Both the position numbers and the translations under genes were made by a program. The notes under the pieces are model-generated. The model was not told the DNA's origin and did not search any database. It saw only the letters and a program-made list of their open reading frames with translations. Of a DNA stretch of 64,000 nt, positions 4,527 through 23,077 are shown piece by piece (within the stretch, counting starts at the first letter, position 1; each line of letters starts with the position of its first letter). The stretch is taken from the NCBI GenBank assembly GCA_030431455.1, contig JAUIJE010000009.1, positions 62,001 to 126,000 of the forward strand. Reading direction: 5' to 3'. The DNA comes from a bacterium (GTDB lineage Bacteria > Myxococcota > UBA727 > JAUIJE01).

Positions 4527-4687
4527 AGCGTTACGCGGTGCGTCAGGGCCGCGCCACCGGTGTTTGGGGATGACAAATCGCGTGCCTCTGATACCGTCCG
4601 CGTGTGGGAGAGGCGCCCACCTCAGCGCCCCCATGCTCGAGACAACCGCGCGTTTCGACCAGTTGGAACGTGCCTTTGGGAGGACGG

Positions 4688-6769: not shown

Positions 6770-7263
6770 TGCGCGACCTGTGGTTGATGCGGCACGGTCG
6801 CGCCGCGGGGAGTTCGCCCTCCGGGGACGCAGGGCGCCCCCTCACCGACGAGGGAGCGGAGGGCATCGAACGCGTCGCGCAGTTCGCGGTGACGGCGGGG
6901 TGGCGCCCCGACGAGATGTGGCACTCGCCCTACCTGCGGGCGATCCAGACCGCCGAGCGCGTCCACCGGCGAACGGGGGGCGCCCGCAGCGTCGACGAGG
7001 GCTTGGTGCCCAACGGACGGCCCAGCAATATTGCAGATGCATTGCGACTGGCGTCAGGCTCCGTGTTCGTGGTCAGCCATCTGCCGCTCTTGCCGGCGGT
7101 GCTCGACGAGCTGTTCGGGGCCCCGGCCCAGATCAACATCAGCCCCGGCACCGTCGTGCACCTGGCGATGATGGGGCGCAGCAATGCCTTTGTGCGCGGG
7201 GTGTATGAACCGGACGTGACCGAGCCGGTCGGCGCCGCGCTGGCCAAGTCCGCTACTTCTTGA
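6769..7263 (+). CDS. SixA-like phosphohistidine phosphatase (histidine phosphatase family)
   Basis: 164-residue branch-1 histidine phosphatase. It opens with LMRHGRA, where the RHG carries the nucleophilic His. It then has RPLTDEGAEGIERVA, the second Arg region (SPYLRAIQTAERV) and a late His in VVSHLPLLPAV, as in SixA, which dephosphorylates phosphohistidine on phosphorelay or PTS-type proteins. The start overlaps the stop of the fused E1 gene by one base (TGATG), which suggests translational coupling. Its 3' end overlaps the convergent PPIase gene by 11 bases. The family is clear; the physiological partner is not visible. Confidence 0.85.
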   Translation: MRDLWLMRHGRAAGSSPSGDAGRPLTDEGAEGIERVAQFAVTAGWRPDEMWHSPYLRAIQTAERVHRRTGGARSVDEGLVPNGRPSNIADALRLASGSVFVVSHLPLLPAVLDELFGAPAQINISPGTVVHLAMMGRSNAFVRGVYEPDVTEPVGAALAKSATS

Positions 7264-8617
7264 GCTTCAGCGGGTTTTCGTCGCCGCCCATCTTGAGGTC
7301 GCCACCGGAGCTGCCCCCGTGCGGGTTTTTGACCCCGGGCCGGACGTTGTCCGCGCTCGGCGGGGGGAGGGCGTGGGCGCCGTCGCCGCCGGCTATGAAC
7401 CCCGGGGGCATGCCCGGTCCCCCGGGGCCATGTCCCATCGGGCCGGGGCCGCCGGGACCCGGGCCGCGCGGTCCAGGACCGGTGGGGAGTTGAGGCTGGG
7501 GGGCGGGCTTCACCTTGATGTCCACGTCGAGCTTTTTGGTCGTGTCCTCGACAAACTTCTGCAGCGCGTCTTGGGCGCGCTTGCTGTTTTCGACCACCAG
7601 GATGCGCTCCTTGGCTTTTTCGAACGGGATGTTGGGTCCTTTTTGCATCCCCTCCGAGAACAGGATGTGGAAACCCTTCTCGGTGCGGATGACCTCGGAC
7701 AGCTCGTTCTTTTGGAGGGTAAAGGCCGCCACCGAGAGGTCGGGGAGCAGCTGTGAGGGTTGGACCTCGCCGAGGCTGCCGCCCTTGTCGCGGGTCCGGG
7801 GGTCATCGGAATGTTTCTGCGCGGCCTCGCCGAACGCCTTGGCCCCTTTGCCGACAAGCTCGGCCCGGAGCTTGTCGGCGGCGGCCTTCTTCTCGGCCAG
7901 CGCTTCGTTGCTGACCCCGAGGGGGGCGGCGATGAGGATCTCGCGGATGGTGGCGGTTTTGCGTTCGGCGTAGACGGCGGGGTTTTGTTTGTACAACGCC
8001 TTGGCCTCGGCCTCGGTGACGCGCGGAATCGCCGCTGTGACCTGCTTCATCAGGGCTTCGATGGCGAGGTCATGGGACATTTCGGTGCGGAACGCTCCCT
8101 CGTCGGTGCGCATGCGCTCCAAGAACTGCGCGAAGGTGATGCCCTCGGGGAGCTTCTGCTTCATCTCGGTGAGCTTGGCCTCGACCACGGTCTCGGGGGG
8201 CGCGAGGTCGCGCTTTTGGGCTTCCTCGGCGAGGGCTTGCCGGCGCACCAAGTGCTTGAGCGCGGGCTCTTCGAACACCGCGCGCATGGGGCCCAACGCC
8301 GCGTCGGGGGGAACGCCCACCCGCATCGCGCGATCCAAGATCGCCCGGTCAAACATCGCCCGGGTCACGGTGGTGTCGCCGAGCTTGGCCACGACGCCGT
8401 CGGGGGGCAGGGACCCAATGGCACTGGAGGGCTGTGCGTCGGATGCGGGGGGCGGCGGTTTGACCTCCCCGGGACCCGACGGCGACGGGGCCGGGTCGGT
8501 GTCCGCGCCGGCCACGCCCGCGGGCCCCGACGGGGTCAAGGCGGGGGGCGCTTTTTCTTCGCAGCCAGCGGCGAGCAGGGCGACGAAGGGCAGGGCGACG
8601 ATCAGCGGCCGGGACAT
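7253..8617 (-). CDS. Parvulin-type peptidyl-prolyl isomerase lipoprotein (SurA/PrsA-like)
   Basis: 454-residue exported folding factor. The N-terminus has a short signal ending in the lipobox LLAAGC, so it is probably a lipoprotein facing the periplasm. A Pro/Ser/Gly-rich spacer follows, then a SurA-N-like helical region (about 75-220). A parvulin rotamase domain at about 225-335 contains ATIREILIA, FGEAAQKHSDDP, GGSLGEV and EVIRTEKGFHILF. The last 100 residues are a low-complexity Gly-Pro-Met tail ending KMGGDENPLKLKK, which is unusual for the family. It is the third gene of a leftward operon (10 bases after the preceding lipoprotein gene) and overlaps sixA convergently by 11 bases. A general role in outer-membrane or lipoprotein folding is inferred. 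Confidence 0.88.
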   Translation of the reverse strand: MSRPLIVALPFVALLAAGCEEKAPPALTPSGPAGVAGADTDPAPSPSGPGEVKPPPPASDAQPSSAIGSLPPDGVVAKLGDTTVTRAMFDRAILDRAMRVGVPPDAALGPMRAVFEEPALKHLVRRQALAEEAQKRDLAPPETVVEAKLTEMKQKLPEGITFAQFLERMRTDEGAFRTEMSHDLAIEALMKQVTAAIPRVTEAEAKALYKQNPAVYAERKTATIREILIAAPLGVSNEALAEKKAAADKLRAELVGKGAKAFGEAAQKHSDDPRTRDKGGSLGEVQPSQLLPDLSVAAFTLQKNELSEVIRTEKGFHILFSEGMQKGPNIPFEKAKERILVVENSKRAQDALQKFVEDTTKKLDVDIKVKPAPQPQLPTGPGPRGPGPGGPGPMGHGPGGPGMPPGFIAGGDGAHALPPPSADNVRPGVKNPHGGSSGGDLKMGGDENPLKLKK

Positions 8618-8626
8618 GGGAGCTCC

Positions 8627-9067
8627 TCAAGGAAAGGCGGGGGGGCAGAGGGCGTGGCCCACCGCGGCGTCGTGCATCACCACGCGAACGATGTTGTCGG
8701 TGGTGCCGGACGCGAGCTGCTCAATGGTACTGCATCCGTGGGCGATGGAGTCGGCGCGGTCGCACGCGTCCACCGCGGCGCAGCCGAGCACATCGACGAA
8801 GAACGGCGTGCCCGGCGTGACCAGCGCGTTGAGCGTTTCGCCTTCGGCGGCGTCGATTTCGAAGGGGCCGAACGCCTCCGGGGTCTGGCCCTCTTCGGCC
8901 ACCTCGACGTACAGGGCGGACACCCCCGAGAACGTCGCGGCCTCGTCGCGGAGCAGCAAGACCGTGGCTTCGGCATCGGCCCCCGCGCACCCCGCGGCGC
9001 AGGCGACGACGACGAGGGCCAACCCGAGCCGGGCGCGGGTGGGGGTCAGCTCACAGGCGCGACGCAT
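8627..9067 (-). CDS. Small lipoprotein coupled to the PEGA-TM gene
   Basis: 146-residue predicted lipoprotein of unknown function. The signal has the hydrophobic run LGLALVVVACAAGC, with Cys as the modification site. The mature part looks like a single beta-sandwich (VSALYVEVAEEG, FGPFEIDAAEGE, NALVTPGTPFFVDVLGCA), with several Cys residues that could form disulfides. Its start lies inside the preceding gene's end (17-base overlap), so translation is likely coupled to the PEGA-TM protein. The gene at 17079-18395 shows the same arrangement and a weakly similar N-terminal half. No enzymatic motif is seen. Confidence 0.7.
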   Translation of the reverse strand: MRRACELTPTRARLGLALVVVACAAGCAGADAEATVLLLRDEAATFSGVSALYVEVAEEGQTPEAFGPFEIDAAEGETLNALVTPGTPFFVDVLGCAAVDACDRADSIAHGCSTIEQLASGTTDNIVRVVMHDAAVGHALCPPAFP

Positions 9068-10334
9068 CGATCACCAGGTCGGTGCCGCCCGGGTTGGCCG
9101 GGCGGGTGAAGAAAAAGTAGGCGCCGGTGGCCCCCGCGGCCGCGACCACGCCCAGCACGACGGCGCCCAACGCGGAGCCGATGAGGGTGGGGACCAGCAG
9201 GCTCCCGTCGTCCTCAGGTTCGGTCCCGCCGCCGCCCCCGCCGAACTGCGGACCGATGCCGAGAAAGCGGGCGAGCAGGGTGTCGTCGTCTTCGATGAGC
9301 TGCGCGTTTTCGCTGGTGGCGATGTCGCTCATGATTTGGACCGCGCCGTCGAGGTCGGACAGGTCAGCGGCCACCGCCAAGGCGGTCAGGCCGATGCGGT
9401 TGTCGGGACCGATGCGGCCCATCACCACCGAAAAGCCGTCGCGGTCGCGCTCGACCACGGCGATGAGGCACACCCCCGAGACCCGGGCGGCTTCGGTGGC
9501 GAAGTCATGGTGGCTGGTTCCGTTGCGCAATAGCTGGCGCGCGCTTTGGGCCGCGTGCCGACGAGGGTCGTCGAGCTCGGCGCGCACTTCGCGGTCGCGC
9601 TTTTTGAGCACCACGTACTCCTCTTGGCGGCCGTCGCCGATCACCGCGACGTAGTGGGGGCCGGGCAACAGGTCGGTGAGCTCAAGCGGCGTCTCCCCCC
9701 GGACGACCCCGTCGACGACGACGGTGGCCCCGGCGGGCACCGAGGTGACGCGCAGGGCGGGCCGCTTCTTGCGGTCCTCGAGGTTCTTTTTGATCGTCGC
9801 GTAGCGGTCCGTGACCTTGGGCGGCACCAGGCTCGGATCGGGCACGTAGTCCGGCATCTGGGCCGCGAGGGCGAGCATGGCCCGGTCCGCGGGGTCTTTT
9901 TTGGACAAGCGCCGCAAGGCGAGGGTGCGCACCAGCATCAGTTCTGCATAAGCATTCCAGGCCTTGGTTGATTCCCGGTACGCGTAGGTGCTCTCGAACC
10001 GGGCGATGCCGTCGTCGGCGCTGGCCACGGCCTTGTCGAACTCGCCGGCAAAAAACCGGGTCCGGGCGGTGCCCAGCAACTTGTCGAGGTCCTCGAGGGC
10101 GCCCTCGGGGGGGCCTTGATCGGCTTGGTCTTCGCGCGGCCGCACCACGTCGATGTCGCGGTCGGCGAACGCTTCGGCAAATGCATCTGCAATCTTGTCC
10201 GCCACCGCTTGGTCTTGCTCGTCGGCAGAACGGGTCACCGCGCCCAAAAACACGGGTCCGTCGGCGTGGGCCGACCCCGCGGCGAACAACGCCAATGGGC
10301 AAAGCAAGAGCAGGAGCGAGGCGGCGGGCCGCAT
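9051..10334 (-). CDS. Secreted PEGA-domain protein with C-terminal membrane anchor
   Basis: 427 residues. A signal peptide (LLLLLCPLALFAAGSAHA) is followed by a helical, TPR-like region (about 75-190; FFAGEFDKAVASADDGIARF) and one PEGA domain (about 200-270; LRVTSVPAGATVVVDGVVRG, then TPLELTDLLPGPHYVAV). After a variable region come a Gly/Glu spacer, one transmembrane helix (TLIGSALGAVVLGVVAAAG) and a 20-residue tail. PEGA domains are common in myxobacterial surface and kinase proteins; their ligand is not established. It is divergent from a Ser/Thr kinase that carries PEGA repeats and is paralogous to the protein at 18392-19765. A TAGGGT box ends 7 bases before ATG 10334 and no ribosome binding site is seen, so the mRNA may be leaderless. 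The more upstream open frame lies antisense to the kinase gene. Confidence 0.8.
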   Translation of the reverse strand: MRPAASLLLLLCPLALFAAGSAHADGPVFLGAVTRSADEQDQAVADKIADAFAEAFADRDIDVVRPREDQADQGPPEGALEDLDKLLGTARTRFFAGEFDKAVASADDGIARFESTYAYRESTKAWNAYAELMLVRTLALRRLSKKDPADRAMLALAAQMPDYVPDPSLVPPKVTDRYATIKKNLEDRKKRPALRVTSVPAGATVVVDGVVRGETPLELTDLLPGPHYVAVIGDGRQEEYVVLKKRDREVRAELDDPRRHAAQSARQLLRNGTSHHDFATEAARVSGVCLIAVVERDRDGFSVVMGRIGPDNRIGLTALAVAADLSDLDGAVQIMSDIATSENAQLIEDDDTLLARFLGIGPQFGGGGGGTEPEDDGSLLVPTLIGSALGAVVLGVVAAAGATGAYFFFTRPANPGGTDLVIDASRL

Positions 10335-10341
10335 CGGCCGT

Positions 10342-10347
10342 ACCCTA
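10342..10347 (-). promoter_or_regulatory. Candidate -10 box (TAGGGT) of a leaderless transcript
   Basis: On the minus strand TAGGGT ends 7 bases before the ATG at 10334. That would put the transcription start at or next to the start codon. No Shine-Dalgarno sequence lies between them and no convincing -35 box is seen. The same arrangement recurs before at least five other genes in this window. Confidence 0.5.
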
Positions 10348-10484
10348 CACCGATCCGGTTGTCGCCGCAGGCTTTCGGCCCCTGTGTAACCCTTCAAAAA
10401 GTATGACCTTTTTGGCAGTCGCGGCCCGGTCTGGCCGGGGCCATCCGGGTGGCGCATCGCCGCAACTGATGAAATCCTCCCGCC

Positions 10485-12791
10485 GTGACCGATCCCGAGA
10501 ACACCGAACCCACGGCCGACGTCGACAGCATCGGCCGTTATCAAATCGTGCGCCCCCTCGCGCGCGGGGGGATGGCGGAGGTGTACCTGGGCCGGTCCAT
10601 CGGTCTGCACGGTTTTCAGAAACTGGTCGCGATCAAGCGCATCCGGGCCAAATACTCGAACGAGAGTTCGTTCATCAACATGCTCGTCGACGAAGCCCGC
10701 ATCAGCATGTTGCTCACCCACCCCAACATCGCGCAGGTCCTCGAGTTCGGCGAGCAAGACGGGGACTACTACCTCGTGCTCGAGTACGTCCCCGGCGAGA
10801 GCCTCTCCCACCTCGTGCGCCGGGCGGTCAAAGGGGGAGAGCGCCTCGGGGTGTTCGAGGTTTGTTACATCCTGGTCGAGGTCCTCCAAGGTCTGCACGC
10901 CGCCCACGTGCAGCGGGATCAGAAGGGCGAGCCCGCCCACATCGTGCACCGCGACGTGTCCCCGCAGAACATCCTGATTTCTTACGAGGGGTTGGTGAAG
11001 CTGATCGACTTCGGCATCGCCAAGGCCAAGCGGCGCTTGGAGCGCACCGAGGTCGGCACCATCAAGGGCAAGCTGCGGTACCTCGCCCCCGAGATGATCG
11101 ACCCCAAGCGCTTCGCCCCCGGGGGAGAGTTCGATCACCGGGTCGATGTGTTCGCCGCGGGGGTGGTCCTGTTCGAGGCCATCGCCGGGCGCAAGCTGTT
11201 CTTCGGTGAGAACGAATTCGACGTCTACGAATCGATCATGAAGGACGAGGTGCCGGACCTGGTGCCGCACGGGATCTGTGACGCCCCGTTGATGAACATC
11301 ATGCGCCGCGCGCTGAAGAAGCGCCCCGAGGACCGCTACGACAGTGCAGAAGCATTTGCGGACGACCTCCGGGCCTACATCTACCGGCGCGAGCCCAGCT
11401 TTACCCAAAAGCGCATCGCGGGTTTGATGGATCGGTACTTCGCCGACGAGCACGCCGCCACCATCCAGCTCGACGCCGCCGCCCCCCAGGAGATCGACGA
11501 CGCGCCCCGTGAGCTCACCTTCGTGGGCACGTCGCTGACGTCCCCCTCCCGCCCCGGGGACAAGCGGGGGGCGCCCCGGGTCAGCAGCGAGCCCACCCGG
11601 GCCCAGCGCGGCCCGCGGTCGAAGGAACCGCGGGGCAGCCGGTCCGGTTCGAGCGAGTCGCGCCCCGGCGGCGGCCAAATCAAGGATGCGTTGGTGGCCA
11701 ACCCCAGCGCGCCCACCGAGATGGTCGACGCCCGCGTGCTTCGCGACGCGCTGGAGGGCCCGCCCCCCGACGAGCGGGACGGACAGACGGTGACGGTGAT
11801 GGCGGACAGCGCCTCGGGGACCCGTCCCCCCGACCGCACCGACACGGGGGAAGCGGCGGCGTTGACCAGCGTGGCCGCGGTCAGTCGCCACGAGAAGACC
11901 GGCGAGACCCCGTCGACCAACACCGAGCTGGTGCGGGCATCGGGGGCGCGGTCCTGGTCCACCGTCATCGCCGCGGGGGTGGTGGTGGGCCTGTTGATGG
12001 CGGTGATGATCGTGTTCGCGGTGGAGTCGGGCGACGACGAGCCCGGCGGTGACGCGCCCGCGGAAGGCGATGCGGTACCGCTGCTCATCGATGTGAAGCC
12101 CAAGGGGGCCCGGGTGGTCGAGCGCGGGGCGAACAGCCCGCCGGCGGAGGCCCCGGTGGTGTGGATGAAGACCCCGGGCGAACGCCTGGAGGTCGAAATC
12201 ACCGCGCCGGGGTACGAACCCATGACCCGCGTCATCAATGTGCCTGCAGGGGAGGCGCGGCCGAAGCTCTCGGTGGCGTTGACCCCCAAGCCGGTGCCGC
12301 TGGTGGTCACCACCGAGCCCCCCGGGGCCACGGTCACGGTGGACGGGCAGGCCCTGGACGAGGTGGACACCGTGTTGCCGGACCGGGCGGTCCGGGTCAC
12401 GGCCACGCTCGACGGTCACCGGGACGTGACCCGCGAATTCCGCGCCCAGGTCGATGAAAAGCTCACCGTGCATCTCGTGCTGGAGCCGGACCAACCCGAG
12501 CCGGTGGATGAGCCCCCCAAGCGAGGGGACCGCAAACCAAGCCGCACGTCGAGCAAGCCGCGCAAGACGTCGCGCAAGGCCCAGTACGGCAAGCTCCAGA
12601 TCACGACCTCGCCGGTCTGGGCCCAGGTGACCATCGACGGCGACCCCATCGAGGAGACCACCCCGGTGACGGTGAAGCTCGAGGCCGGGCGGCACAAGGT
12701 GGTGCTCACCCACCCGCCCAAGGGTTATGTGAAGTCCTTCACCGTCGAGGTCAAGGCGAACAAAACCGTACGTCGTCGGGTGAGCTTCTAG
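10485..12791 (+). CDS. Ser/Thr protein kinase with transmembrane helix and PEGA repeats
   Basis: 768-residue Hanks-type kinase. The kinase domain spans about residues 19-290: Gly-rich loop LARGGMAEVYLG, Lys51 in VAIKRI, catalytic loop HRDVSPQN (Asp157; the HRDVSPQN form is common in myxobacterial kinases) and DFG at 175-177. A disordered, charged linker follows. One transmembrane helix lies at about 491-512 (VIAAGVVVGLLMAVMIVFAV). Outside the membrane are three PEGA-type repeats (LLIDVKPKGARVV; LVVTTEPPGATVTVDGQ; LQITTSPVWAQVTIDGDP) ending in SVTVRRRVSF-like basic residues. The GTG at 10485 is the only start that keeps the kinase domain at the N-terminus. Divergent from the PEGA-TM operon, 150 bases away. 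The stimulus and substrates are not visible. Confidence 0.93.
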   Translation: MTDPENTEPTADVDSIGRYQIVRPLARGGMAEVYLGRSIGLHGFQKLVAIKRIRAKYSNESSFINMLVDEARISMLLTHPNIAQVLEFGEQDGDYYLVLEYVPGESLSHLVRRAVKGGERLGVFEVCYILVEVLQGLHAAHVQRDQKGEPAHIVHRDVSPQNILISYEGLVKLIDFGIAKAKRRLERTEVGTIKGKLRYLAPEMIDPKRFAPGGEFDHRVDVFAAGVVLFEAIAGRKLFFGENEFDVYESIMKDEVPDLVPHGICDAPLMNIMRRALKKRPEDRYDSAEAFADDLRAYIYRREPSFTQKRIAGLMDRYFADEHAATIQLDAAAPQEIDDAPRELTFVGTSLTSPSRPGDKRGAPRVSSEPTRAQRGPRSKEPRGSRSGSSESRPGGGQIKDALVANPSAPTEMVDARVLRDALEGPPPDERDGQTVTVMADSASGTRPPDRTDTGEAAALTSVAAVSRHEKTGETPSTNTELVRASGARSWSTVIAAGVVVGLLMAVMIVFAVESGDDEPGGDAPAEGDAVPLLIDVKPKGARVVERGANSPPAEAPVVWMKTPGERLEVEITAPGYEPMTRVINVPAGEARPKLSVALTPKPVPLVVTTEPPGATVTVDGQALDEVDTVLPDRAVRVTATLDGHRDVTREFRAQVDEKLTVHLVLEPDQPEPVDEPPKRGDRKPSRTSSKPRKTSRKAQYGKLQITTSPVWAQVTIDGDPIEETTPVTVKLEAGRHKVVLTHPPKGYVKSFTVEVKANKTVRRRVSF

Positions 12792-12820
12792 AGCGCAGTC
12801 AGCACATCTGGACGTGCGCT
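12792..12820. terminator. Possible shared hairpin between convergent genes
   Basis: The 27 bases between the convergent kinase and metallophosphatase genes hold an imperfect inverted repeat, AGCGCA-GTC ... GAC-G-TGCGCT, with a one-base bulge. Its position suits a bidirectional terminator, but there is no T-run on either side, so the call is weak. Confidence 0.3.
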
Positions 12821-13802
12821 AGCCCATGCGCGCAGGCAACGGGCCGAGCCGCACCCGGGCGCGGTCTGGCCGCCACGCGAACATCTGGCCGCGCTCGACG
12901 TAGTAAGCGCCCACCGTGCCCCCGCTGCCCCCGAGGCCGACGTCGGTGAAGCACAGCCGGCCGTTGCGGCGCAGGTAGGGCATGCCCTTTTCGCCCCCGA
13001 TGAGGTCGGTGCGGGTGTGGCCCACACACATGGAGCTGGCCCGGACCGCGCGCAGGGTGCGTTCGAGCAGCCCATCGGTGATCTCATCGTTGGCGATGGC
13101 AAAGGTGCGGCACCACAGGGGCCCCTCCTCGGACACCAGCGGGCTGTCCACCGGGAGGTCGAGGCTGGTCTCGGGGTGCGTCGACCAATGGTCCTGCACC
13201 ATGCGGTGCAGCCGGGGCAGACCCAGCGCGGCGAACCGCGGGTGGAGCCCGCCGTGGGTGATCAGGACCGACCCGACGCGGATGGCCACCGGCAAAGACC
13301 GCAAGAACCGACCGTAGGGCCCGTCGGGTCCAAAGGCATTGCGGTAGGCGTCGCGCCCGGGGACGTTTTTTTCTTCCCAGTCCCGCAGCGCCCCCACCAC
13401 CGGATCGGTCTCGCCGCCCCGGGTGCGGGCGTCGAGCAATGCATAGACATGCGCGGCCCGGGCGGCGTCGAAGCGAGCACGCTCCTCCCGGCCGGCGAAC
13501 TCCAAGAACTCTTCGGGGTGGCACCAGGCCAGGTTGCCGAGGGTGACCATGGCCTCGTGGTTGCCGAGCAGCATGGTGAAGCGGCTGGCCCGGCGGCGGG
13601 CCTGGCGGGACAGGCGCATGATCCGATCGAGGGCGACCCGGGCGGTGGCCCCGCGGTTGACCACGTCCCCCACCTGGACCACGTGGGTGTCGCGCGCGAT
13701 CCACACCCCGTCGTGGTCGGTGATGCCCATGCCGCATAGAATTGTGTGCAGCGCGTGGTCGTCACCGTTGAGGTCGCCGATGACCACCAGCCGCTCCGGC
13801 AT
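12819..13802 (-). CDS. Calcineurin-like metallophosphatase (Shewanella-type PPP relative)
   Basis: 327-residue soluble metallophosphoesterase. Motifs run in the usual order: VVIGDLNGDDHALHTIL (metal site 1), VVQVGDVVNRG (GDxVDRG-like, with Asn in place of Asp), LLGNHEAMV (GNHE), VLITHGGLHP and SSMCVGHTRTD. The first motif reads GDLNG where the family normally has GDxHG, so a metal-ligand His is replaced by Asn. The start at 13802 (MPERLVVIGD) puts motif 1 near the N-terminus; an in-frame extension upstream exists but reads as basic low-complexity sequence. It lies 162 bases downstream of a sensor kinase gene on the same strand. Whether it is a protein phosphatase is an inference from family resemblance. 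Confidence 0.82.
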   Translation of the reverse strand: MPERLVVIGDLNGDDHALHTILCGMGITDHDGVWIARDTHVVQVGDVVNRGATARVALDRIMRLSRQARRRASRFTMLLGNHEAMVTLGNLAWCHPEEFLEFAGREERARFDAARAAHVYALLDARTRGGETDPVVGALRDWEEKNVPGRDAYRNAFGPDGPYGRFLRSLPVAIRVGSVLITHGGLHPRFAALGLPRLHRMVQDHWSTHPETSLDLPVDSPLVSEEGPLWCRTFAIANDEITDGLLERTLRAVRASSMCVGHTRTDLIGGEKGMPYLRRNGRLCFTDVGLGGSGGTVGAYYVERGQMFAWRPDRARVRLGPLPARMG

Positions 13803-13964
13803 GGCGTACACCACCCGAGAGCGTTGCAGCCCTTCGCGCGGCGGTCTTCGCAACCGAAACGAAAACCGTGGGCGCACTGTGCGTTTGGCTGGTCGATTCA
13901 GAACAAACCCCCAAACCGACAAGACCAAATCCGGCCTGACAGATCAAACCCGTGGCCAGGCGGA

Positions 13965-15437
13965 TCACGCCGCGGTCGGGATCTCGACCTTGAATGTGCT
14001 CCCTCGTCCCACCACGCTCTCGATGTAGATCCGGCCGTGGTGGCCCTCGACGATGCCGCGGGTGATGGCGAGCCCGAGGCCCGAGCCTTGGCGGCCCTGG
14101 GAGAGCAGATCCCCCACCCGGTAGAACCGGTCGAACACCCGGCCCCATTCGGATTTGGGCAACCCCGGTCCGTTGTCCTGCACCCCGAACACGATGCGGC
14201 GCCGCCCTTGGTGGGCGAAGATGTGAATGCGCTTGTCCGCCCCGGTGTACTTGTAGGCGTTGCCGAGGAGATTGACGAACACCTCGACGAGGGCCTCCTT
14301 GTCGGCGAGCACATCGGGCAGGTCGGCGTCGACGGAGCTGGTGAGGGAGAGCGCGGACTCTTCGCCCGGGGCCACGGTGTGGGCGCGGAAGGCCTCGATG
14401 GCGTCGTCGATGACCCGCCGGGCGGGCACGGGCCGGAGATTGAAGATGCGGCGGCCAGCCTGGAGGCGGGCGTAGCCCAGCACGCGTTCGATCATGTCGG
14501 AAAGCCGCTCGGTCTCGCGGGACAGGAGGTCGAGGCACTCCTCGCGTTCGGCCGCGTCGGCCCGGCCGAGCTTCAGGGTCTCGATGAACATGCGAATCGA
14601 CGTCAGCGGGGTCCGCAGCTCGTGGCTGACGTGGGACACGAAATCGGTCTTGAGCCGGCTGAGCTTCGTCTCTTGCCAGATGAGCCGGGAGGTCAAGACC
14701 ACGCCGGTGACCAGGGCGATGTTGAACACCAACAGCAGCACCACGTAGATGATCGCGAGGGTGCCCTCAGGCTCGGGGGCGGTGACCTCCAGGGTGTACC
14801 GGTTGAACGGTGGGGGCAGGTCCGAGACTGCGAGCTGGGAGACGGACGGCGCGCTGGCTTCGGCCATCAACGTCTGCACCAAGCCTTCGGGGGAATCGGC
14901 GAGGGACACATCGTCGTCGGGACCGACCCGGAGGCGCACGGTGAGCTCATCCTGGTCGCGGCCCACCGACTCCACCGCGGACGCGAGCTTGTCGTCGTCG
15001 AGGCGGTAGGCGACCAGGCCGCCCGCGTCGGTGCGTTGCACGGCGACAATGCCTTCGTCCACCCGCAGGTGGGTCACGCCGCCCGGCCGCAGCGCCGCGC
15101 CCGCCCCCCACACCGGGTCGTCACCCGCGGCTTCGGGGTCGTCGGGCGGCGACATCACCCCCGCCACCGGCAACCGCTCGTCGTCGAACTCGGACGCGTC
15201 GTTCCGGAGCCGCTTGGCCGCTTCCGCGGTGCGTTGCACGAGCGCAAAGAGCACGCTCTCCGCCTCTTTGATCAGGGCCTCGGCCGCTTCCCGTTGGCGC
15301 TGCTTTTCCGCTTGGCGTTCGTTGCGGGCCGCGATCACCCCGAACCCAGACAGGGCCATCGAAGGCAACACCACCAACGTGCAGAACAGCACGAAAATGC
15401 GGCGAAAACCGACGACGTCTTGTCCGCTTCTGGCCAT
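13965..15437 (-). CDS. Membrane sensor histidine kinase
   Basis: 490 residues. TM1 is at about 12-36 (IFVLFCTLVVLPSMALSGFG), then a roughly 190-residue extracytoplasmic sensor region that begins with a charged helix (NERQAEKQRQREAAEALIKE). TM2 lies at about 226-250 (AIIYVVLLLVFNIALVTGVV). The HisKA domain has the phosphoacceptor His272 in FVSHVSHELRTPLTSIRM. The HATPase domain has the N-box NLLGNAYKYTG, G1 DNGPGLP and G2 GSGLGLAI. No HAMP domain is evident, because the kinase helix follows TM2 closely. ATG 15437 is preceded on the minus strand by GAGGAG. No response regulator is adjacent. A metallophosphatase gene lies downstream and a thioredoxin-like gene is divergent. The signal is unknown. 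Confidence 0.93.
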   Translation of the reverse strand: MARSGQDVVGFRRIFVLFCTLVVLPSMALSGFGVIAARNERQAEKQRQREAAEALIKEAESVLFALVQRTAEAAKRLRNDASEFDDERLPVAGVMSPPDDPEAAGDDPVWGAGAALRPGGVTHLRVDEGIVAVQRTDAGGLVAYRLDDDKLASAVESVGRDQDELTVRLRVGPDDDVSLADSPEGLVQTLMAEASAPSVSQLAVSDLPPPFNRYTLEVTAPEPEGTLAIIYVVLLLVFNIALVTGVVLTSRLIWQETKLSRLKTDFVSHVSHELRTPLTSIRMFIETLKLGRADAAEREECLDLLSRETERLSDMIERVLGYARLQAGRRIFNLRPVPARRVIDDAIEAFRAHTVAPGEESALSLTSSVDADLPDVLADKEALVEVFVNLLGNAYKYTGADKRIHIFAHQGRRRIVFGVQDNGPGLPKSEWGRVFDRFYRVGDLLSQGRQGSGLGLAITRGIVEGHHGRIYIESVVGRGSTFKVEIPTAA

Positions 15438-15521
15438 GGGTGCTCCTCGGGTGTCACTAACCGGGCCGGGACTACGTTGTTAGAGTGGACAAAGGCGGGA
15501 CAAAAGACCCGCGGAGGCGTT

Positions 15522-16058
15522 TTGACAGAAGCCAGCCGCACCTTCGATCTCAAAGGCATCGCCGCCCTGGGGGCGCGCGTCGTCCTGTTTGGGGGCGCCT
15601 TGTTCCTGCTGGTCACCATCGTCACCGGCCAAGGCGGCATGCTCGAAAAGGGGGGGCCCGCGCCTCCGCTGCACCTCACATCCTACGACGGCAAACACTG
15701 GGACTTGTCGGTGTTCGAAGGGCGTCCGGTGGTGGTCAACTTCTGGGCCACGTGGTGCCCGCCCTGCATGGCCGAGTTGCCCCATTTTGCCCGCACCGCA
15801 CAGGAGCGTGACGACGTCGTGCTCGTGGGCGTGGCGGTGCAAAGCCCGCCGCAGGAAGTGTTCGACACGTTGCGCCGCCTCGACATCCGCTACCCGATCG
15901 CGACGAGCGATGCCCACTCGCTCGAGGCTTGGCAAGCCCAGACCCTGCCGACCACCTACGTGCTCGACGACAAGCACCGGGTGGTGTGGGCCGCGCGCGG
16001 GCAGCTCACCAAGAGCCAGCTCGACGACGCCATCGCCGAGGTGGTGCCCGCGCCGTGA
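15522..16058 (+). CDS. Membrane-anchored thioredoxin-like protein (TlpA/ResA type)
   Basis: 178 residues. A signal anchor (LGARVVLFGGALFLLVTIVT) is followed by a TlpA/ResA-like thioredoxin fold facing the periplasm. Its active site is WATWCPPCMAEL, the cis-Pro region is TLPTTYVLDDKHRV, and the redox-family lead-in is PPLHLTSYDGKHWDLSVFEG. Such proteins usually reduce apocytochrome c or other exported thiols; the partner here is not visible. The start is inferred as TTG 15522 because GGAGG lies about 5 bases before it and no ATG fits. A TAGAGT element at 15481-15486 may be its -10 box. The stop overlaps the next gene by 4 bases (GTGA), which implies translational coupling with the deacetylase. 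Confidence 0.87.
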   Translation: MTEASRTFDLKGIAALGARVVLFGGALFLLVTIVTGQGGMLEKGGPAPPLHLTSYDGKHWDLSVFEGRPVVVNFWATWCPPCMAELPHFARTAQERDDVVLVGVAVQSPPQEVFDTLRRLDIRYPIATSDAHSLEAWQAQTLPTTYVLDDKHRVVWAARGQLTKSQLDDAIAEVVPAP

Positions 16059-17101
16059 GCGGCGCGGCCCGCGTCTTTTTTGACCCCGTGGTGCGCGATC
16101 ACGACCCGGGGCGCGGGCACCCCGAGAGCCCGGCGCGGGCCGACGCCATCGCGGCCATGCTCGGGGCGCGCGGCGCGACCGTCGAGAGCGCGCCCCCCAT
16201 CGATGAAATGGCATTGGGCCAGACCCACGCCCCCGCCCATGTGGCCCGGGTGCTGGGCGCGGCCGGGCGGCCCCATTCCTTTGACCCCGACACGCACGCG
16301 GCGCCCCCCTCGGTGGGTGTCGCCCTGCGCGCCGCGGGCATGACCTGCGCCGCGGTGGACGCGGCGTTGGCCGCCCCGGGCACGGCCGCGTTCGCCCTGG
16401 TGCGGCCCCCGGGCCATCACGCCACCCCCGATCAGCCCATGGGGTTCTGTTTCTTCAATAACATTGCGCTGGCGGCGGAGCGGGCCCTCGCCACCGACGG
16501 CGTGGACCGGGTCCTGATCGTGGATTGGGACGTCCACCACGGCAACGGGACCGAGGCGTGCTTCTGGGCGCGCGACGACGTGCTGGTGTTCAACACGCAT
16601 CAGTTTCCGTTCTATCCCGGCACCGGGGCGGCCCACGACGTGGGCGCGGGGCCGGGCCGCGGCTACACCGTGAACCTGCCGCTCGGCCCCGGCGCCGACG
16701 ACGCGACCTTGGGCACGCTGTACCAAGAGATCCTCCGGCCGCTGGCCGCGGCCTACCGACCGGACCTGGTGTTGGTGTCCGCGGGTTTTGACGGGCACCG
16801 GCGCGACCCGCTCGGCGGCTTCGACCTCAGCACCGAGGGGTTCGCGGCGCTGTGCGGCGTGGCCCACGAGATTGCCCGCGACCACGCCGCGGGGCGGTTG
16901 GCGTTGGCCCTCGAGGGCGGGTACGACACCGAGGCCCTCGCCGAGAGCGTGTCCGCGGTGCTCGATGTGCTCGACGGGCGGGCACCCCCGCCGGTCCGGA
17001 CGGGGAGCCGCCACGCGGACGCCGCCATCGCTGCGTTCGATGACGCGCACCGGGGCGTCGGCCCGCTGGCGGCTCCGGTCAGCCTGCCTCGGGGCGGATG
17101 A
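16055..17101 (+). CDS. HDAC/AcuC-family deacetylase (class II-like)
   Basis: 348-residue zinc-dependent deacetylase of the arginase/HDAC fold, acting on acetyl-lysine, acetylpolyamine or a related amide. Visible are ERRHPESP-like HDPGRGHPESPARADAI, the His-His dyad in RPPGHHATPDQPMGFC, the zinc-binding VDWDVHHGNGT with its second Asp/His, and VSAGFDGHRRDPLGGFDL. Near the end is ALEGGYD. All catalytic positions look intact. The start is GTG 16055, overlapping the upstream stop by 4 bases. The 3' end overlaps the convergent kelch lipoprotein gene by 23 bases. Substrate preference cannot be read from sequence; coupling to a thioredoxin-like gene is unusual context. Confidence 0.93.
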   Translation: MSGAARVFFDPVVRDHDPGRGHPESPARADAIAAMLGARGATVESAPPIDEMALGQTHAPAHVARVLGAAGRPHSFDPDTHAAPPSVGVALRAAGMTCAAVDAALAAPGTAAFALVRPPGHHATPDQPMGFCFFNNIALAAERALATDGVDRVLIVDWDVHHGNGTEACFWARDDVLVFNTHQFPFYPGTGAAHDVGAGPGRGYTVNLPLGPGADDATLGTLYQEILRPLAAAYRPDLVLVSAGFDGHRRDPLGGFDLSTEGFAALCGVAHEIARDHAAGRLALALEGGYDTEALAESVSAVLDVLDGRAPPPVRTGSRHADAAIAAFDDAHRGVGPLAAPVSLPRGG

Positions 17102-18395
17102 CGAGCACGCCGGGTTGGTTCCCCCCGACGACGAACAACGCACCCCCCCGGCCGGCCACCAAGTGGCCGAAGGGCCGTTCCTGTCCCCCGGGGAAGGCCA
17201 TGGTCACGGTCCCGTTGGCGCTGATGAGATACACCCGGTCGCCGGCCGCGTTGAGGACTGCAAAGACATTGTCCTGCTCGGCCACCTTCACCGCCCGCGC
17301 GGCGTCGAACGCCGCGGGCACGTCCGCGTCCGCGGCGTTGATCACGGTGACGTTCTCGGGGTGCAGACGGATGACCGACCCGGTGTTGCTCACTTGAAAG
17401 ACCTCGGCGCCGGCTTTGGCCAACGGTCCGGACCCGGCGAGCTCGGTGAGCGACCCATCCTCGTCGAGACGGGCGGTGCCGGGGGCCCGCGTCAGCCCGT
17501 CCAGGGCCAACGACCCCCCCGCGACATAGGCGATGCCGCCCACCGCCACCACATCGGCGTAGTACCGGGAAGTACTGAGCGGCACGCTCGTCAGCAACGC
17601 CCCGTCGGGGTCGCGCCGCTCGAGCACGTCGTCGTACTGGACGAACACGTCGCCCCCCCCGGTGGCCAACGCCGCGCCGCAGGTGTTCTTGGTGGTCTGC
17701 AGGGTCTCGCCGCCCACCGCAAACGGGGCCGCGGCCGACGCCGAGGCGCTGACTTCAAACCCGCGCAGGGCGGTGCCGTCCCCGTCGCACCCGCCGGCCA
17801 GGAACATGCGGTCCCCGTCGAGGGCGCAGCCGAACTGCTGCCGTGCCCGGGGCAGACCCGGGCCCTCCCGCACGGCGCGGTCGGCCCGCGCCACGGCAAA
17901 GCTCCCGGGCACCAGGGTGTTGCCTTGCACGCCGCCGAGCACATAGATGTCCCCGTCGACGGACGTGCACACCGCGGGGTGGGTGCGCCGGTTGGGCAGG
18001 TCGGCGATGAGCGTGTGCGCGCGCCGCACGGGGGCGAGGACCAGAACTTCGGGCGCCACCGCGTCGGGGCTGATGGTGAAGGTCGCGGTCTGGCCAAAAG
18101 CGTCATCGCCGGCCTCCGCGGTGGTCTCGACCCGGACCTGCATCTCGCTCCCCTCCGGCGGGGTCTCGAGGTCGGTGAGCACGATGTCCTCACCCGGGCC
18201 AAAGCTGCGGTTGGTGATCCGGTCCTCGATCACCACCGTCACCTCGACGCTGGTGGCGTCGTCGAGCGGCGGCGCGCCCCCGCCGGCCAGCTCCTCCGGC
18301 TCCCACACGAGCACCTCCGCGGCGGGGAAGGGCACATCGCGACACCCGGCCGCGACCACCACCGACAATGCCACTGCGACACACCGCCCGGTCAT
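17079..18395 (-). CDS. Kelch-like beta-propeller lipoprotein
   Basis: 438-residue predicted lipoprotein (signal VAVALSVVVAAGC). The N-terminal 120 residues look like a beta-sandwich (SVEVTVVIEDRITNRSFGPG, then MQVRVETTAEA). Kelch-type repeats follow, with the typical double Gly and spaced aromatics: VDGDIYVLGGVQGN, CALDGDRMFLAGGCDGD, VVAVGGIAYVAGGS and GRGGALFVVGGNQPG. It is probably exposed in the periplasm or at the cell surface. Its ATG overlaps the stop of the upstream PEGA-TM gene by 4 bases, so the two are translationally coupled, as in the pair at 8627-10334. It is convergent with the deacetylase gene and overlaps it by 23 bases. The ligand is unknown. Confidence 0.78.
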   Translation of the reverse strand: MTGRCVAVALSVVVAAGCRDVPFPAAEVLVWEPEELAGGGAPPLDDATSVEVTVVIEDRITNRSFGPGEDIVLTDLETPPEGSEMQVRVETTAEAGDDAFGQTATFTISPDAVAPEVLVLAPVRRAHTLIADLPNRRTHPAVCTSVDGDIYVLGGVQGNTLVPGSFAVARADRAVREGPGLPRARQQFGCALDGDRMFLAGGCDGDGTALRGFEVSASASAAAPFAVGGETLQTTKNTCGAALATGGGDVFVQYDDVLERRDPDGALLTSVPLSTSRYYADVVAVGGIAYVAGGSLALDGLTRAPGTARLDEDGSLTELAGSGPLAKAGAEVFQVSNTGSVIRLHPENVTVINAADADVPAAFDAARAVKVAEQDNVFAVLNAAGDRVYLISANGTVTMAFPGGQERPFGHLVAGRGGALFVVGGNQPGVLVIRPEAG

Positions 18396-19765
18396 CGTCG
18401 CACCGTCACGTCGATCTTGCCCCGGGGGGCGACATCGAGTTGGCCGTCGGGCGTGATGTAGCCCTGCCAGAACAACACCCCCGCGGTCGCGCCCGCGGCC
18501 ACCACCGCCGCCGCCACCAACGCCGCGGCGCCGCCGACCCCCACGCCGGTCCAGACCCAGACGCCGGCCCCGCCTTCGTCCTCGCCCGCCTCCTCGTCGA
18601 CCGCCGGCGCGGCCACCGCGGGGGGGGCATCCGCGTCCCCGTCCGCGCCGGGTCCCGGCGACGCCACCGGCACCGCCGCGTCGGGGGGCGCGGGCGGGTC
18701 GCTTCCTGGGGCGGGCAACACAAACGCGGGGCGCTCGGCGCTGTACGTGGGCGACGCCCGGCCGAGCGCATCTCGCAATGCCTTTGCGTCCGCCGTGCGG
18801 GGGGCGAGGGCCAAGCGCGGCGGGCCGTCCCCGGTGGCCTCGACCACGAACGCGTGGTGATCGGTCTGGCCCACCATCACCAAGCGCTCGACCTCGAGCA
18901 GCGCGCGCAACTTGTCGATGTAGGCGGAATCCAATGCTTGTTGATCCGTGAGCCACACCCCCGCGCCCTGCGGCCACAACGTCACGTCGAGCGCGGCGTC
19001 GACCACCACCGGGACGGCGTTGTCCCGCTTGACCTCGACCCACCGGGCGGCGGTGCGGCGCCCCTTGTGCTCGAGCCACAACCGCACCCGGCCGGGCGGC
19101 AACACCGAGAACAACCGCAGCGGGGTCGTGCCCACCGGGCGGCCCTCGACCATCACCGTCACCCCCGTGGGGTTGGACCGCACCTCGAGCCCCCCGAGCC
19201 CCTGTCGCTGCACGTTGGCCCTGGCGGCGTTGAGCAGGGTGCGCACCTTTGGCGGATAGCGGGCCGCGTCCAGGTTCATGGCGGGGTCCTCGCGAAACGC
19301 GTTCTCCAAAAAGCCGATCGCGTCCTGGCCCTGCAACGACTCCGCCCGGCCCGTCTCCTCGGGGTCGGCCACCGCGAGCAACGCCACCGCGAGGTCGACC
19401 CGCGTCTGCTGGAGCAACGCCCGCTCGCCATCGGACAGCTCAACCTCGTCGGCGAGTGCGCCGACCACCTCGCGGTAGCCCGACACCGCGCGCTCGATCT
19501 CGAATTCGCCGAACGCGGCCTTGGCCTGCTCCGCCTCGTGCCGCAGGCGAACCAAACGATCCGCCGGGGGCGGCACATAGGCCCCGTGCAACCGCTGGGC
19601 GGTGGCCGCTTTGTCGAGCACCGCGGGGTCGGCGGACCGCAACAGGCCGCGCACATCATCCGCCGCTTGGGTGTCGAAGGCGCCGCCGCGCCCGACGACC
19701 AGCACGGCCGCATCAGGCGCTGCGGTCGACACCACCGCGAGCAAGGTGAACGAAACGACCAACAC
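18392..19765 (-). CDS. Secreted PEGA-domain protein with C-terminal membrane anchor (paralogue)
   Basis: 457 residues, same plan as the protein at 9051-10334. It has an N-terminal signal (LVVSFTLLAVVSTAAP), a helical TPR-like region (about 70-185; FGEFEIERAVSGYREVVGAL) and a PEGA domain (about 190-260; LEVRSNPTGVTVMVEGRPVG, then TPLRLFSVLPPGRVRLWL). Then come a mixed domain, a Pro/Ala/Asp-rich spacer and one transmembrane helix (GGAAALVAAAVVAAGATAG). The tail (ITPDGQLDVAPRGKIDVTVR) is rich in beta residues. GTG 19765 is used as the start, because the signal peptide begins there and the upstream gene stops 7 bases before. Its stop overlaps the kelch lipoprotein ATG. Function unknown; a surface or periplasmic scaffold is plausible. 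Confidence 0.77.
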   Translation of the reverse strand: MLVVSFTLLAVVSTAAPDAAVLVVGRGGAFDTQAADDVRGLLRSADPAVLDKAATAQRLHGAYVPPPADRLVRLRHEAEQAKAAFGEFEIERAVSGYREVVGALADEVELSDGERALLQQTRVDLAVALLAVADPEETGRAESLQGQDAIGFLENAFREDPAMNLDAARYPPKVRTLLNAARANVQRQGLGGLEVRSNPTGVTVMVEGRPVGTTPLRLFSVLPPGRVRLWLEHKGRRTAARWVEVKRDNAVPVVVDAALDVTLWPQGAGVWLTDQQALDSAYIDKLRALLEVERLVMVGQTDHHAFVVEATGDGPPRLALAPRTADAKALRDALGRASPTYSAERPAFVLPAPGSDPPAPPDAAVPVASPGPGADGDADAPPAVAAPAVDEEAGEDEGGAGVWVWTGVGVGGAAALVAAAVVAAGATAGVLFWQGYITPDGQLDVAPRGKIDVTVRR

Positions 19766-19771
19766 CGCGCC

Positions 19772-22700
19772 CTAGTTGCATGTCTCGGGCGTCGACGAAA
19801 GGGACAACAAGAAGGAGACGTCGGCGGTGGGCCCCGAGTACTGCACCTGCGACGCCGCGCTCCATTGGTCCGTGACGTAGCTGGTCGAGCCCAGCGTGCA
19901 CTGGATGCCGTCTACGAAATCGCCGGGCACGGCAATGGACGTGTTGGGGAAATAGCGCTGGCGGGCATCGCCCCCGGGGCACGAACTCTGGGTCGCGCCC
20001 TGCAGCTCGTACAGCACCGTGCCGTCCGACGCGATTTGGTGTTCCAGGTTGCCGGCGAGCCAGGTGAAGTTCACCACGGTGAAGTTGATGTACTCCACCT
20101 GCGGCACCCGCACCGTGTTGCCGGAGCCGCAGCTGTGCACCGCGCGGAGGTACACGGGGTCGCCATCGGGATCCTGCACGTCGGTCTGGGCGTGGAACGT
20201 CGTGTTGGGCAGCGCGCTGGGGTCGGTGCCGAGGCAAACCTGGCCGGGGGCCAGGTACGGGCAGGCGCTTCGTTGCCGGGCGACCTGGTCGTAGTTGTCA
20301 CCCGCGACAATGTCGTAGTTGAGGAATCCGTGGAACGCGATCTCGGACTTTTGGTTGTCGAGATAAGTGACATTGTCAAACGTCGTCGGGATCCGATTGA
20401 GGAAGACCGTGGTGCCGGCCGCGGACGCATTGGCGCCGAAGGGGTCGGTGGCGCGAATGTCGTACTCGACGGGGGCGCTCCGGATGCTGATGTCACACTC
20501 GAGCTCGTGGCTCACTTGCACATTGGTGACCTGAACGTCGGTCGCCACGCAGTTGCGGTTGATCGCGTTGTTTCCGGTCATCACCACGCTGTGCACGATG
20601 GGGTCGCCGTTGGGGTCGATCATGATGCCGGCGTGCCCGATCCGCGTTTCGCCCGCGATGCGACCGGCGCCGACGTAGAGGTGGTTTTGGTTGGTGACGC
20701 CGTTGAAGGGGGTGGCCACGTAGGGCACCCCGTTGGACACGTCGTGCTTGAGGATGGTGTGCACGCCGGTGGTGGCCACGCCGTCGGTGAACGCGCCGTT
20801 GAGGCCAAACTGTCCATGGATGTTGGTGGTGACTTGGGTCCGGTAGGAGATGAAGCCGTCGTTGACCACCGCCTCGCTCTGGCTGCCGCAGGTCCCGGTG
20901 CCGGACGACAGGCTGGAGCTGGACGCGTTGGGGCAGGACAACAGCAGGCCGGTGAAGTCGAGGGTGATGGGGTCGCCGTCGGGGTCGATGACCGCGACCT
21001 GGGCGGCGGAGTAATCGAGGGTGGCGTTGTACGACGACGTCGCCGCGTCGTACGTGTGTTGGGAGCTGTCGAGGAGCAGAGGACCGGCTTGCGGGGCGCG
21101 GTTGACCACGCGGAACGAGAAGCTCTGGGTGTCCGACGCGCCGTCGGCATCGGTCACCGTGACCTGCGCGCTGTACCATTTCATGGCGTCGGTCAGCGTG
21201 GTGGCGGCGACGACAAACAACGCAGATTCGTCGTTGCCCGCGGCGGAGATGGTGAAGTCGATGTTGGGGTTGGTGCAGCCGGTGAACGGCCCGGGCAACG
21301 GGGGGTCGTCGGTGCAGCTGCGAACCTCGTAGGTCGTGGTCACCAGGTTGCCCTCGGCGTCGGTGGTGGTCCAGCTCGCGCCGGGGTTGGCGCGGTACAG
21401 GGCTTCGACCCCGTCGTAGAAGTGGTCGATGTCCCCGAGGTTCGGCGTGGCGGTGTCGATGTCGGGGGCTTGGTTGGTGACGACGAAGGGGGCGAGGTCG
21501 GTGGCGGTGGGGCTCGGGGCCTCGTATTCGTCGACGTCGTCCACCGCGACCTCGATCTGGTACGACCCGGCGAAGGGGCCGAGGTCGGTCCGGTGGAGGG
21601 TGACGTCGAAGGTGGTGTCCGAGGTGCGGGTCCAGGTGGTGGTGGCGGCGATGCCGGCTGGGGCCTCGGCCACGGAGAACGTCATCGTGAGGTCGGCGGG
21701 CGCGGTGTAGTCGTCGGTGGCCTCGACCGTCACGGGGAACACCAGGGTGCTGCAGCCCCCCGCATCGCAGGTGTAGCCGGCCGGGGCGCCGGCGGAGAAG
21801 GCGGTGATCACGGGGCTTTCGTCCTCGGGGCTGATGCTCGCGGTGCGCTGGTCCAGGCCGCCGTACTCGTCGGTGGCGGTGAAGGTGAACGTCCAAGTCT
21901 GGGGCGTCACCGTCGAGGTGTCGACGTCGAACGCACAGGAGTCTGGGTCCCCGTCGTCGACGAGAGCGGGCACGAGGGCGGGGACGTCGGTGGTGGCGGC
22001 GCAGGTCACGGCGTCGGCGTCGGCGTCGGACACCGGGACGGTCACCCGAAACGTCGCCCCCGCGTCGAACACGGGGACGTCGGGCACGCCCAGGACTGGG
22101 TTGTTGTTGAGCACCTCGATGTCGGCGGTCGCGTCGGCGGTCGAGACCACCCCGGTCACGCGGGCCCGGGCGGTGAGGGCCAGGGGCAGGTGGGGCGAGG
22201 GGGGGATCGCGGTGAACTCGTTGCCGCTGCTGGTGACGGTGGCGGTGGCACCGTCCTGGAGCGCGTCCACCTCGAAGGTCACCGCATCGAGGAACGCGGG
22301 GGGCACCGAGTCGGGGTCGACCTCGAGGGTGAACGTCGCGGCCGCGGGATAGGGCATCGGCACCACGTCTTGGAAGGACACCACCAAGCTGGCGCGGACC
22401 GCGATGGCGGTGTCGAGAGTGGCGGAGGACACGCTGTCGGCGGCGGTGACGGTGAACGTGTGGGTGCCCGGGCAGGCCGGGGTGAACGTGGTGTTGGCCG
22501 CGTTGGCGTCGGCGAACGTCCCTTGGTCGCAGTCCTCGTCCGCCGGCCGCGCGACCGACCATGTGTACGACAGTGGTTCTTCGGAGGCGGCCACCGTGCC
22601 GGAGGCGTCCAATGCCAACGCAAACCCGTCGTAGCCGACGTTGTCCGCGTCCACCACAATCAGATGGTTGTCCGGCCGCAGCACCGACAGCTCGACCTCG

Positions 22701-23077
22701 ACATCGTCGGAGATGGGGTCGTCACCGAACGTCGAGACCGTCAGCCGGATGCGGTGGACGCCCAGACACCCGGGGGTGTACTGCACTTCGGCGGAGGCAT
22801 CGTCGGGGCTGAATCCCACGTCACACCCTGGCGGCACGTCGGCCTCTTCCCAGCGGTACACGAGCAAGCCGCCGTCGGGGTTGACCGACTCGCCCGCGGA
22901 CAGGACCGCGGTCTCCCCGAGGACCACGCCGTTTTCAGCCCCGGTGATCACGGCCGAAAGCTCATCCGCGGGGCGCTCGGGCTCAGGCTCGCCGGTCGTC
23001 CCCGGCGGACAGCCGGCCACGGCCAAGGTCAAAACAAGAAGGGCGGATTGGGCGCAGACGCCAGAACGACATGACAT
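19772..23077 (-). CDS. Large Ig/PKD-like multidomain lipoprotein
   Basis: 1101-residue predicted surface lipoprotein. The signal ends in LVLTLAVAGC at residue 23. The mature protein is a chain of Ig-like/PKD-like beta-sandwich repeats, with phrases such as GESVNPDGGLLVYRWEEAD, PGCLGVHRIRLTVSTF, CPGTHTFTVTAADSVSSA, TFTATDEYGGLDQRTASI and AQVTVTDADGASDTQSFSF. These are typical of PKD and cadherin-like modules that extend adhesins. There are many paired Cys residues and Asp-rich loops (DPDGDPI) that could bind calcium. ATG 23077 was chosen because the signal peptide starts there. It is first in an operon with the PEGA-TM and kelch genes. No catalytic domain was seen; an adhesive or structural role is inferred. 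Confidence 0.8.
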   Translation of the reverse strand: MSCRSGVCAQSALLVLTLAVAGCPPGTTGEPEPERPADELSAVITGAENGVVLGETAVLSAGESVNPDGGLLVYRWEEADVPPGCDVGFSPDDASAEVQYTPGCLGVHRIRLTVSTFGDDPISDDVEVELSVLRPDNHLIVVDADNVGYDGFALALDASGTVAASEEPLSYTWSVARPADEDCDQGTFADANAANTTFTPACPGTHTFTVTAADSVSSATLDTAIAVRASLVVSFQDVVPMPYPAAATFTLEVDPDSVPPAFLDAVTFEVDALQDGATATVTSSGNEFTAIPPSPHLPLALTARARVTGVVSTADATADIEVLNNNPVLGVPDVPVFDAGATFRVTVPVSDADADAVTCAATTDVPALVPALVDDGDPDSCAFDVDTSTVTPQTWTFTFTATDEYGGLDQRTASISPEDESPVITAFSAGAPAGYTCDAGGCSTLVFPVTVEATDDYTAPADLTMTFSVAEAPAGIAATTTWTRTSDTTFDVTLHRTDLGPFAGSYQIEVAVDDVDEYEAPSPTATDLAPFVVTNQAPDIDTATPNLGDIDHFYDGVEALYRANPGASWTTTDAEGNLVTTTYEVRSCTDDPPLPGPFTGCTNPNIDFTISAAGNDESALFVVAATTLTDAMKWYSAQVTVTDADGASDTQSFSFRVVNRAPQAGPLLLDSSQHTYDAATSSYNATLDYSAAQVAVIDPDGDPITLDFTGLLLSCPNASSSSLSSGTGTCGSQSEAVVNDGFISYRTQVTTNIHGQFGLNGAFTDGVATTGVHTILKHDVSNGVPYVATPFNGVTNQNHLYVGAGRIAGETRIGHAGIMIDPNGDPIVHSVVMTGNNAINRNCVATDVQVTNVQVSHELECDISIRSAPVEYDIRATDPFGANASAAGTTVFLNRIPTTFDNVTYLDNQKSEIAFHGFLNYDIVAGDNYDQVARQRSACPYLAPGQVCLGTDPSALPNTTFHAQTDVQDPDGDPVYLRAVHSCGSGNTVRVPQVEYINFTVVNFTWLAGNLEHQIASDGTVLYELQGATQSSCPGGDARQRYFPNTSIAVPGDFVDGIQCTLGSTSYVTDQWSAASQVQYSGPTADVSFLLSLSSTPETCN

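Follow-up and report, generated by a model that had tools for sequence, protein, structure and literature searches.

The window analysed here, a stretch of 64,000 nucleotides from a member of the Myxococcota, contains two genes for PEGA-domain proteins with a C-terminal membrane helix (PEGA-TM proteins), each overlapping a downstream lipoprotein gene, and one of the two is divergent from a gene for a PEGA-repeat Ser/Thr kinase. This arrangement raises the question of whether the two copies represent a locally duplicated module encoding a two-protein envelope device, as the original prediction proposed, and whether the kinase is its signalling partner.

Annotation of both copies bore out the proposed shared plan of signal peptide, TPR-like helices, PEGA domain, one C-terminal helix and short tail, as well as the overlaps of 17 bp (copy 1) and 4 bp (copy 2) with the downstream lipoprotein genes. 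In copy 1, PEGA1 (427 aa; 9051..10334, minus strand) carries its PEGA domain at residues 193-232 (9639..9758, minus strand; Pfam PF08308, E 2.6e-9), followed by a glycine/alanine-rich membrane helix placed by hydropathy at approximately residues 377-405 (9120..9206, minus strand) and a tail ending in VIDASRL (9054..9119, minus strand). The 17 bp are shared with the gene for LP1, a short lipoprotein of 146 aa (8627..9067, minus strand) in which a lipobox cysteine follows the signal peptide (ACAAGC/CAG, read from the sequence). Homologues retain the lipobox, and the further cysteines are largely conserved. LP1 contains no Kelch propeller, and an AlphaFold fold from its single sequence reached a pLDDT of 32, a meaningless model. 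An intergenic region of 150 bp (10335..10484) separates PEGA1 from the divergent Ser/Thr kinase gene (10485..12791, plus strand), whose product contains a Pkinase domain and three outside PEGA matches in Pfam. The PEGA scores of the kinase, PEGA1 and PEGA2 (60.2, 37.3 and 32.7 bits, respectively) all exceed the curated cut-off of 20.8 for PF08308.

Several other genes lie around copy 1. A lipoprotein gene with a parvulin-type PPIase domain (7253-8617, minus strand) follows LP1 after 9 bp on the same strand; it was considered as a part of the module and dropped, its homologue being convergent in G012. A calcineurin-like phosphatase gene (12819-13928, minus strand) is convergent to the kinase gene at a distance of 27 bp, and was likewise dropped as a candidate counter-enzyme of the kinase, with no match found near the kinase in relatives. 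Further along, a single gene (4604-6769, plus strand) encodes fused alpha and beta subunits of a 2-oxo-acid dehydrogenase E1, and stays near the copy-1 pair in G012.

In copy 2, PEGA2 (457 aa, GTG start; 18392..19765, minus strand) has its PEGA domain at residues 191-252 (19010..19195, minus strand; PF08308, E 6.8e-8), a membrane helix by hydropathy at approximately residues 406-433 (18467..18550, minus strand) and a tail ending in KIDVTVRR (18395..18466, minus strand). It shares the 4 bp ATGA with the gene for LP2 (438 aa; 17079..18395, minus strand), a lipoprotein with an N-terminal domain and a Kelch-type propeller. Its lipobox after the signal peptide reads VAAGC in the sequence and is retained in homologues. 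Kelch motifs were found in the C-terminal half (Pfam Kelch_1 above cut-off, E 8.4e-8), and an AlphaFold model built from two sequences was usable for the propeller half at moderate confidence, with the N-terminal domain below a pLDDT of 50. The best Foldseek matches to this model were Kelch and other propellers; as modelled, the C-terminal half of LP2 is a Kelch propeller. In its Kelch motifs and propeller-like model this half resembles Kelch beta-propeller proteins (PF01344 and relatives), whereas LP2 as a whole differs from other Kelch proteins in being a lipoprotein, in its extra N-terminal domain and in the gene order that ties it to a PEGA-TM protein. Upstream, a large lipoprotein gene with PKD-like repeats (19772-23077, minus strand; approximately 1101 aa) stops 6 bp before the PEGA2 start and probably forms a three-gene operon with PEGA2 and LP2 in this genome. 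It was rejected as a part of the module because the PEGA2 genes of relatives do not have it upstream. A full-length M2 peptidase of the angiotensin-converting-enzyme family (E 6e-226) is encoded at 23940-25751 on the plus strand.

Comparison of the two PEGA-TM proteins by plain BLASTP gave a weak match (E 0.006), whilst their family profiles matched with 99.4 % probability (E 1.9e-21). With the PEGA domain removed the profiles still matched at 94.9 % (E 4.3e-8), through the part that precedes PEGA, and therefore the shared plan reflects homology and not merely a common PEGA domain. The part after the PEGA domain barely matched (52.8 %). The idea of a local duplicated module did not hold, however: PEGA1 and PEGA2 each score much higher against homologues from other families than against one another, in G012 the two kinds are found on separate contigs and well inside them, and each copy has its own relatives elsewhere, in unlinked places. 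Copies 1 and 2 represent old lineages that are distinct from one another. Their occurrence within 10 kb, which had been taken as evidence for a module, carries little weight, since some 0.3 such close pairs are expected by chance on our estimate of approximately 16 PEGA-TM genes in 7.7 Mb and the 8-kb closeness is uninformative. A common beta-sandwich in LP1 and the N-terminal half of LP2 also found no support at the sequence level: BLASTP detected no similarity, hhalign of LP1 against the LP2 N-terminal domain gave 4.3 % and 0.5 %, and the LP1 profile matched neither LP2 nor any of 17 lipoprotein N-terminal domains.

The pairing itself proved robust. In this genome a lipoprotein gene directly follows 6/16 PEGA-TM genes compared to 22/542 (4 %) of other genes (p 5e-5), where the 16, by our own count, are the PEGA proteins that have a C-terminal membrane helix and are not kinases, and the background gene calls are crude. 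Spacing to the lipoprotein gene in these six pairs ranged from -17 to +3 bp. Among PEGA-TM homologues sampled across the phylum, 12/40 are followed by a lipoprotein gene, as against 9/262 background genes at the same loci (p 7e-7). For the reverse comparison, the N-terminal domain of the lipoproteins was made into a profile (A7), which was searched in 193 genomes and matched in 89, nearly always once per genome. Thirty of these loci were fetched, one without flank, and a PEGA-TM gene was found directly upstream at 28 of the 29 inspected (the exception being L299); nine of the 29 had helped to build the profile, and the independent figure from loci outside it is 19/20. The upstream genes, some of them cut by contig ends, encode a membrane-helix protein with a short conserved tail. 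All eight that were scanned with Pfam contain PEGA, seven above the cut-off and one at 20.1 vs 20.8. Overlaps of 4-7 bp are common between PEGA-TM and lipoprotein genes across pairs. The two genes are kept adjacent well outside this genome and recur together across the phylum, so that the refuting outcome named with the original prediction, unrelated lipoproteins whose adjacency is not conserved elsewhere, did not arise. This supports the two-protein envelope unit originally suggested; the pairing is real and not the product of drift.

Mapping the two lineages separately, we found a lipoprotein gene directly downstream of PEGA1 homologues within the same order and beyond. The LP1 family was present in 8/195 genomes, and a PEGA-TM gene precedes those inspected matches that have enough flank. 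Besides this genome, G012-G015, G026 and G184/G185 have pairs of the LP1 type, some of those in G012-G015 being truncated by contig ends. PEGA2/LP2 pairs with the 4-bp overlap were identified in G012, G014, G015 and G001, with a related pair in G027. A third pair of the same plan is present in this genome on contig C24 (L072), and its lipoprotein consists of the N-terminal domain plus Kelch-like repeats. As read from the sequences, this is also the composition of most lipoproteins downstream of PEGA-TM genes elsewhere, the remainder being short or Cys-rich. Further PEGA-membrane proteins with an overlapping or adjacent lipoprotein gene in this genome were noted at L106 (7536-9056, plus strand), L065 (8068-9363, plus strand) and L070 (8268-9281, minus strand), where the lipoproteins are of other types (Cys-rich, 1010-aa and others). 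A further large group of PEGA membrane proteins (L233, L183 and others) was also observed in genomes of 12-13 Mb and 9-10 Mb, with a C-terminal strand pair finishing in F, e.g. VSVGVTAGPDGAGATLSGTF. This group is without the lipoprotein, and some of its genes are instead followed by one for a secreted protein.

The suggestion that the kinase is a possible signalling partner was strengthened by its genomic context, as almost all of the copy-1 pairs identified, from three families, have a divergent kinase gene next to them. The divergent PEGA-repeat kinase was seen directly at seven loci, in G012, G013, G014 and G015, plus G185 and G184 from another family, and kinase-domain identity within the order was about 47-61 %. 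G013 has a second PEGA gene at a contig end, and its kinase is likely that at the end of C422, the same repeat being present at both ends. There are 45 matches to the copy-1 kinase in this genome. When nine genomes were searched with it, the copy-1 neighbour was the best match in G012, G014, G015 and G185; in G013 the C422 kinase came first, followed by the C142 neighbour, in G026 the top match lay on the same contig approximately 4 kb away, and in G184 the neighbour ranked second. No constant kinase neighbour was found for copy 2 in the relatives examined, indicating that the kinase is not a general part of the module. In a wider sample, a kinase gene lies within approximately 130 bp upstream of 8/40 PEGA-TM genes compared to 11/252 background genes (p 0.0015), a background that is itself enriched, the loci having been picked for their PEGA genes. 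Only copy 1 shows conserved linkage with a Ser/Thr kinase gene.

The segment after the membrane helix was compared across 41 members. It has a median length of 15 residues and an alternating beta-strand pattern, and falls into VIDASRL-like (copy 1), VTVRR-like (copy 2) and, elsewhere, RPVTGTVTASW or SVTVRW types. In the copy-1 tail D-x-S-x-L is invariant in eight members, with NGTAL in G026 and the Ser missing in G184/G185. The LP1 start codon falls within the D-A codons of the tail where the overlap is 17-20 bp; gene overlap was nonetheless rejected as the cause of tail conservation, since loci with a 4-bp overlap or none at all retain D-x-S-x-L. The residues before the helix carry a more negative net charge than those after it (p 0.001, an optimistic value given that the members are related). 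This bias is a modest sign in favour of a cytoplasmic tail, being small in itself and found in tails that are not strongly basic.

Drawing on the pairing and its conservation, the conserved tail and the kinase linkage of copy 1, we tentatively favour a coupled envelope sensor composed of lipoprotein and PEGA-TM protein, whose receiver in copy 1 would be the kinase, a proposal to which we give a little less than an even chance. We infer its topology, complex formation, ligand sensing and direction of signal as follows. The signal peptide would export the PEGA-TM protein, which one C-terminal helix would hold most likely in the inner membrane, leaving the TPR-PEGA part in the periplasm and the short conserved tail in the cytoplasm. 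The overlapping downstream gene would yield the lipoprotein, and translational coupling would ensure that both are made in step, which suggests that they act as a complex. The lipoprotein, bearing a Kelch propeller in the widespread form, may be the part that contacts a ligand or the wall, and the PEGA-TM protein may relay its state across the membrane. At copy 1 the output would be the divergently encoded Ser/Thr kinase, the outside PEGA repeats of which could meet the PEGA-TM protein, whilst its kinase domain could act on or read the tail. Against the sensor stands the loss of the conserved Ser from the copy-1 tail in G184/G185, and the position of the LP1 start codon over the tail motif at some loci weakens a reading based on the tail. 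The proposed topology must accommodate the modest charge bias and the lack of strongly basic tails, and the varying neighbourhood of copy 2 speaks against the kinase as a general component.

The main rival is a structural scaffold: the PEGA-TM protein would serve to tether or place the lipoprotein, and thereby the wall or outer membrane, and would have no part in signalling; on this view the kinase would merely share the promoter region or control expression. That the pair mostly occurs without a kinase neighbour agrees with such a role, as does the nearly constant single N-domain lipoprotein in each of 89 genomes, which fits a housekeeping part of the envelope. TPR and PEGA are, moreover, generic protein-contact modules. 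A scaffold, however, leaves unexplained the retention of a single kinase lineage next to copy 1 in different families, as well as the conservation of the tail beyond the membrane, and we regard it as possible but doubtful. Dedicated export, whereby the PEGA-TM protein acts as chaperone or exporter and takes its own lipoprotein to the cell surface in the manner of other one-client surface lipoprotein systems, would account for one lipoprotein per PEGA-TM gene, for coupled translation and for the variety of lipoprotein types (Kelch, short, Cys-rich). It appears unlikely given that Pfam identified no barrel or known exporter domain in PEGA-TM proteins and that a single, strongly hydrophobic helix is in keeping with the inner membrane. 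The helix lies near the C-terminus, as it would in a removable sorting signal from which a soluble or surface-attached mature PEGA protein is released, but the tail is long for such a signal (median 15), is a conserved part with a beta-strand pattern and lacks a basic cluster, and no NCBIfam sorting-signal model matched, making this explanation very unlikely. That two abundant kinds of protein came to be neighbours by chance or through operon drift, as would happen for some pairs in a genome with approximately 45 PEGA proteins, is the least credible explanation in view of the forward and reverse associations and of overlaps kept across many families, and for the pairing the reverse test already refutes it.

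The coupled sensor that we favour brings together known domains in a combination that is undescribed in Pfam, NCBIfam and the open literature searched. Neither Pfam nor NCBIfam holds a family for the PEGA-TM/lipoprotein combination, and the open-licence literature searched yielded no system in which a lipoprotein gene overlaps one for a TPR-PEGA-TM protein, which is weak evidence of absence. PEGA (PF08308) denotes a domain and not a system; the pair described here adds an overlapping lipoprotein gene to a TPR-PEGA-TM protein. The closest comparison for the kinase is with PASTA-type receptor Ser/Thr kinases (PknB/Stk1, NF033483), which are likewise membrane kinases with outside repeats and a related kinase domain (214.7 bits). 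It differs from them in falling below the NF033483 cut-off of 450 bits, in having PEGA rather than PASTA repeats outside, and in the conserved two-gene envelope pair divergently alongside. A Ser/Thr kinase gene that adjoins the gene of its substrate is known from pkn4-pfk in myxobacteria (PMC2887360). There the partner is a cytoplasmic enzyme encoded in the same operon, whereas here the candidate partner is a divergent pair of envelope proteins.

In sum, the two-gene pair is a conserved feature of the envelope of this phylum, its lipoprotein N-terminal domain being found in 89/193 genomes. We put forward more speculatively, as a possibility short of a probable one, that it represents a class of envelope receptors found throughout the phylum: a lipoprotein and a PEGA-TM adaptor, encoded by overlapping genes, would form a co-receptor signalling through the conserved cytoplasmic tail, with a dedicated PEGA-repeat Ser/Thr kinase as receiver in one old lineage. 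Ser/Thr kinases are very numerous in myxobacteria (PMC2887360). A kinase kept by the same two envelope proteins across families offers a concrete candidate partner. The kinase linkage of copy 1 points to a candidate envelope-sensing unit hitherto unstudied, and such a receptor class, if real, would supply a defined input for some of the many orphan kinases that these bacteria carry.
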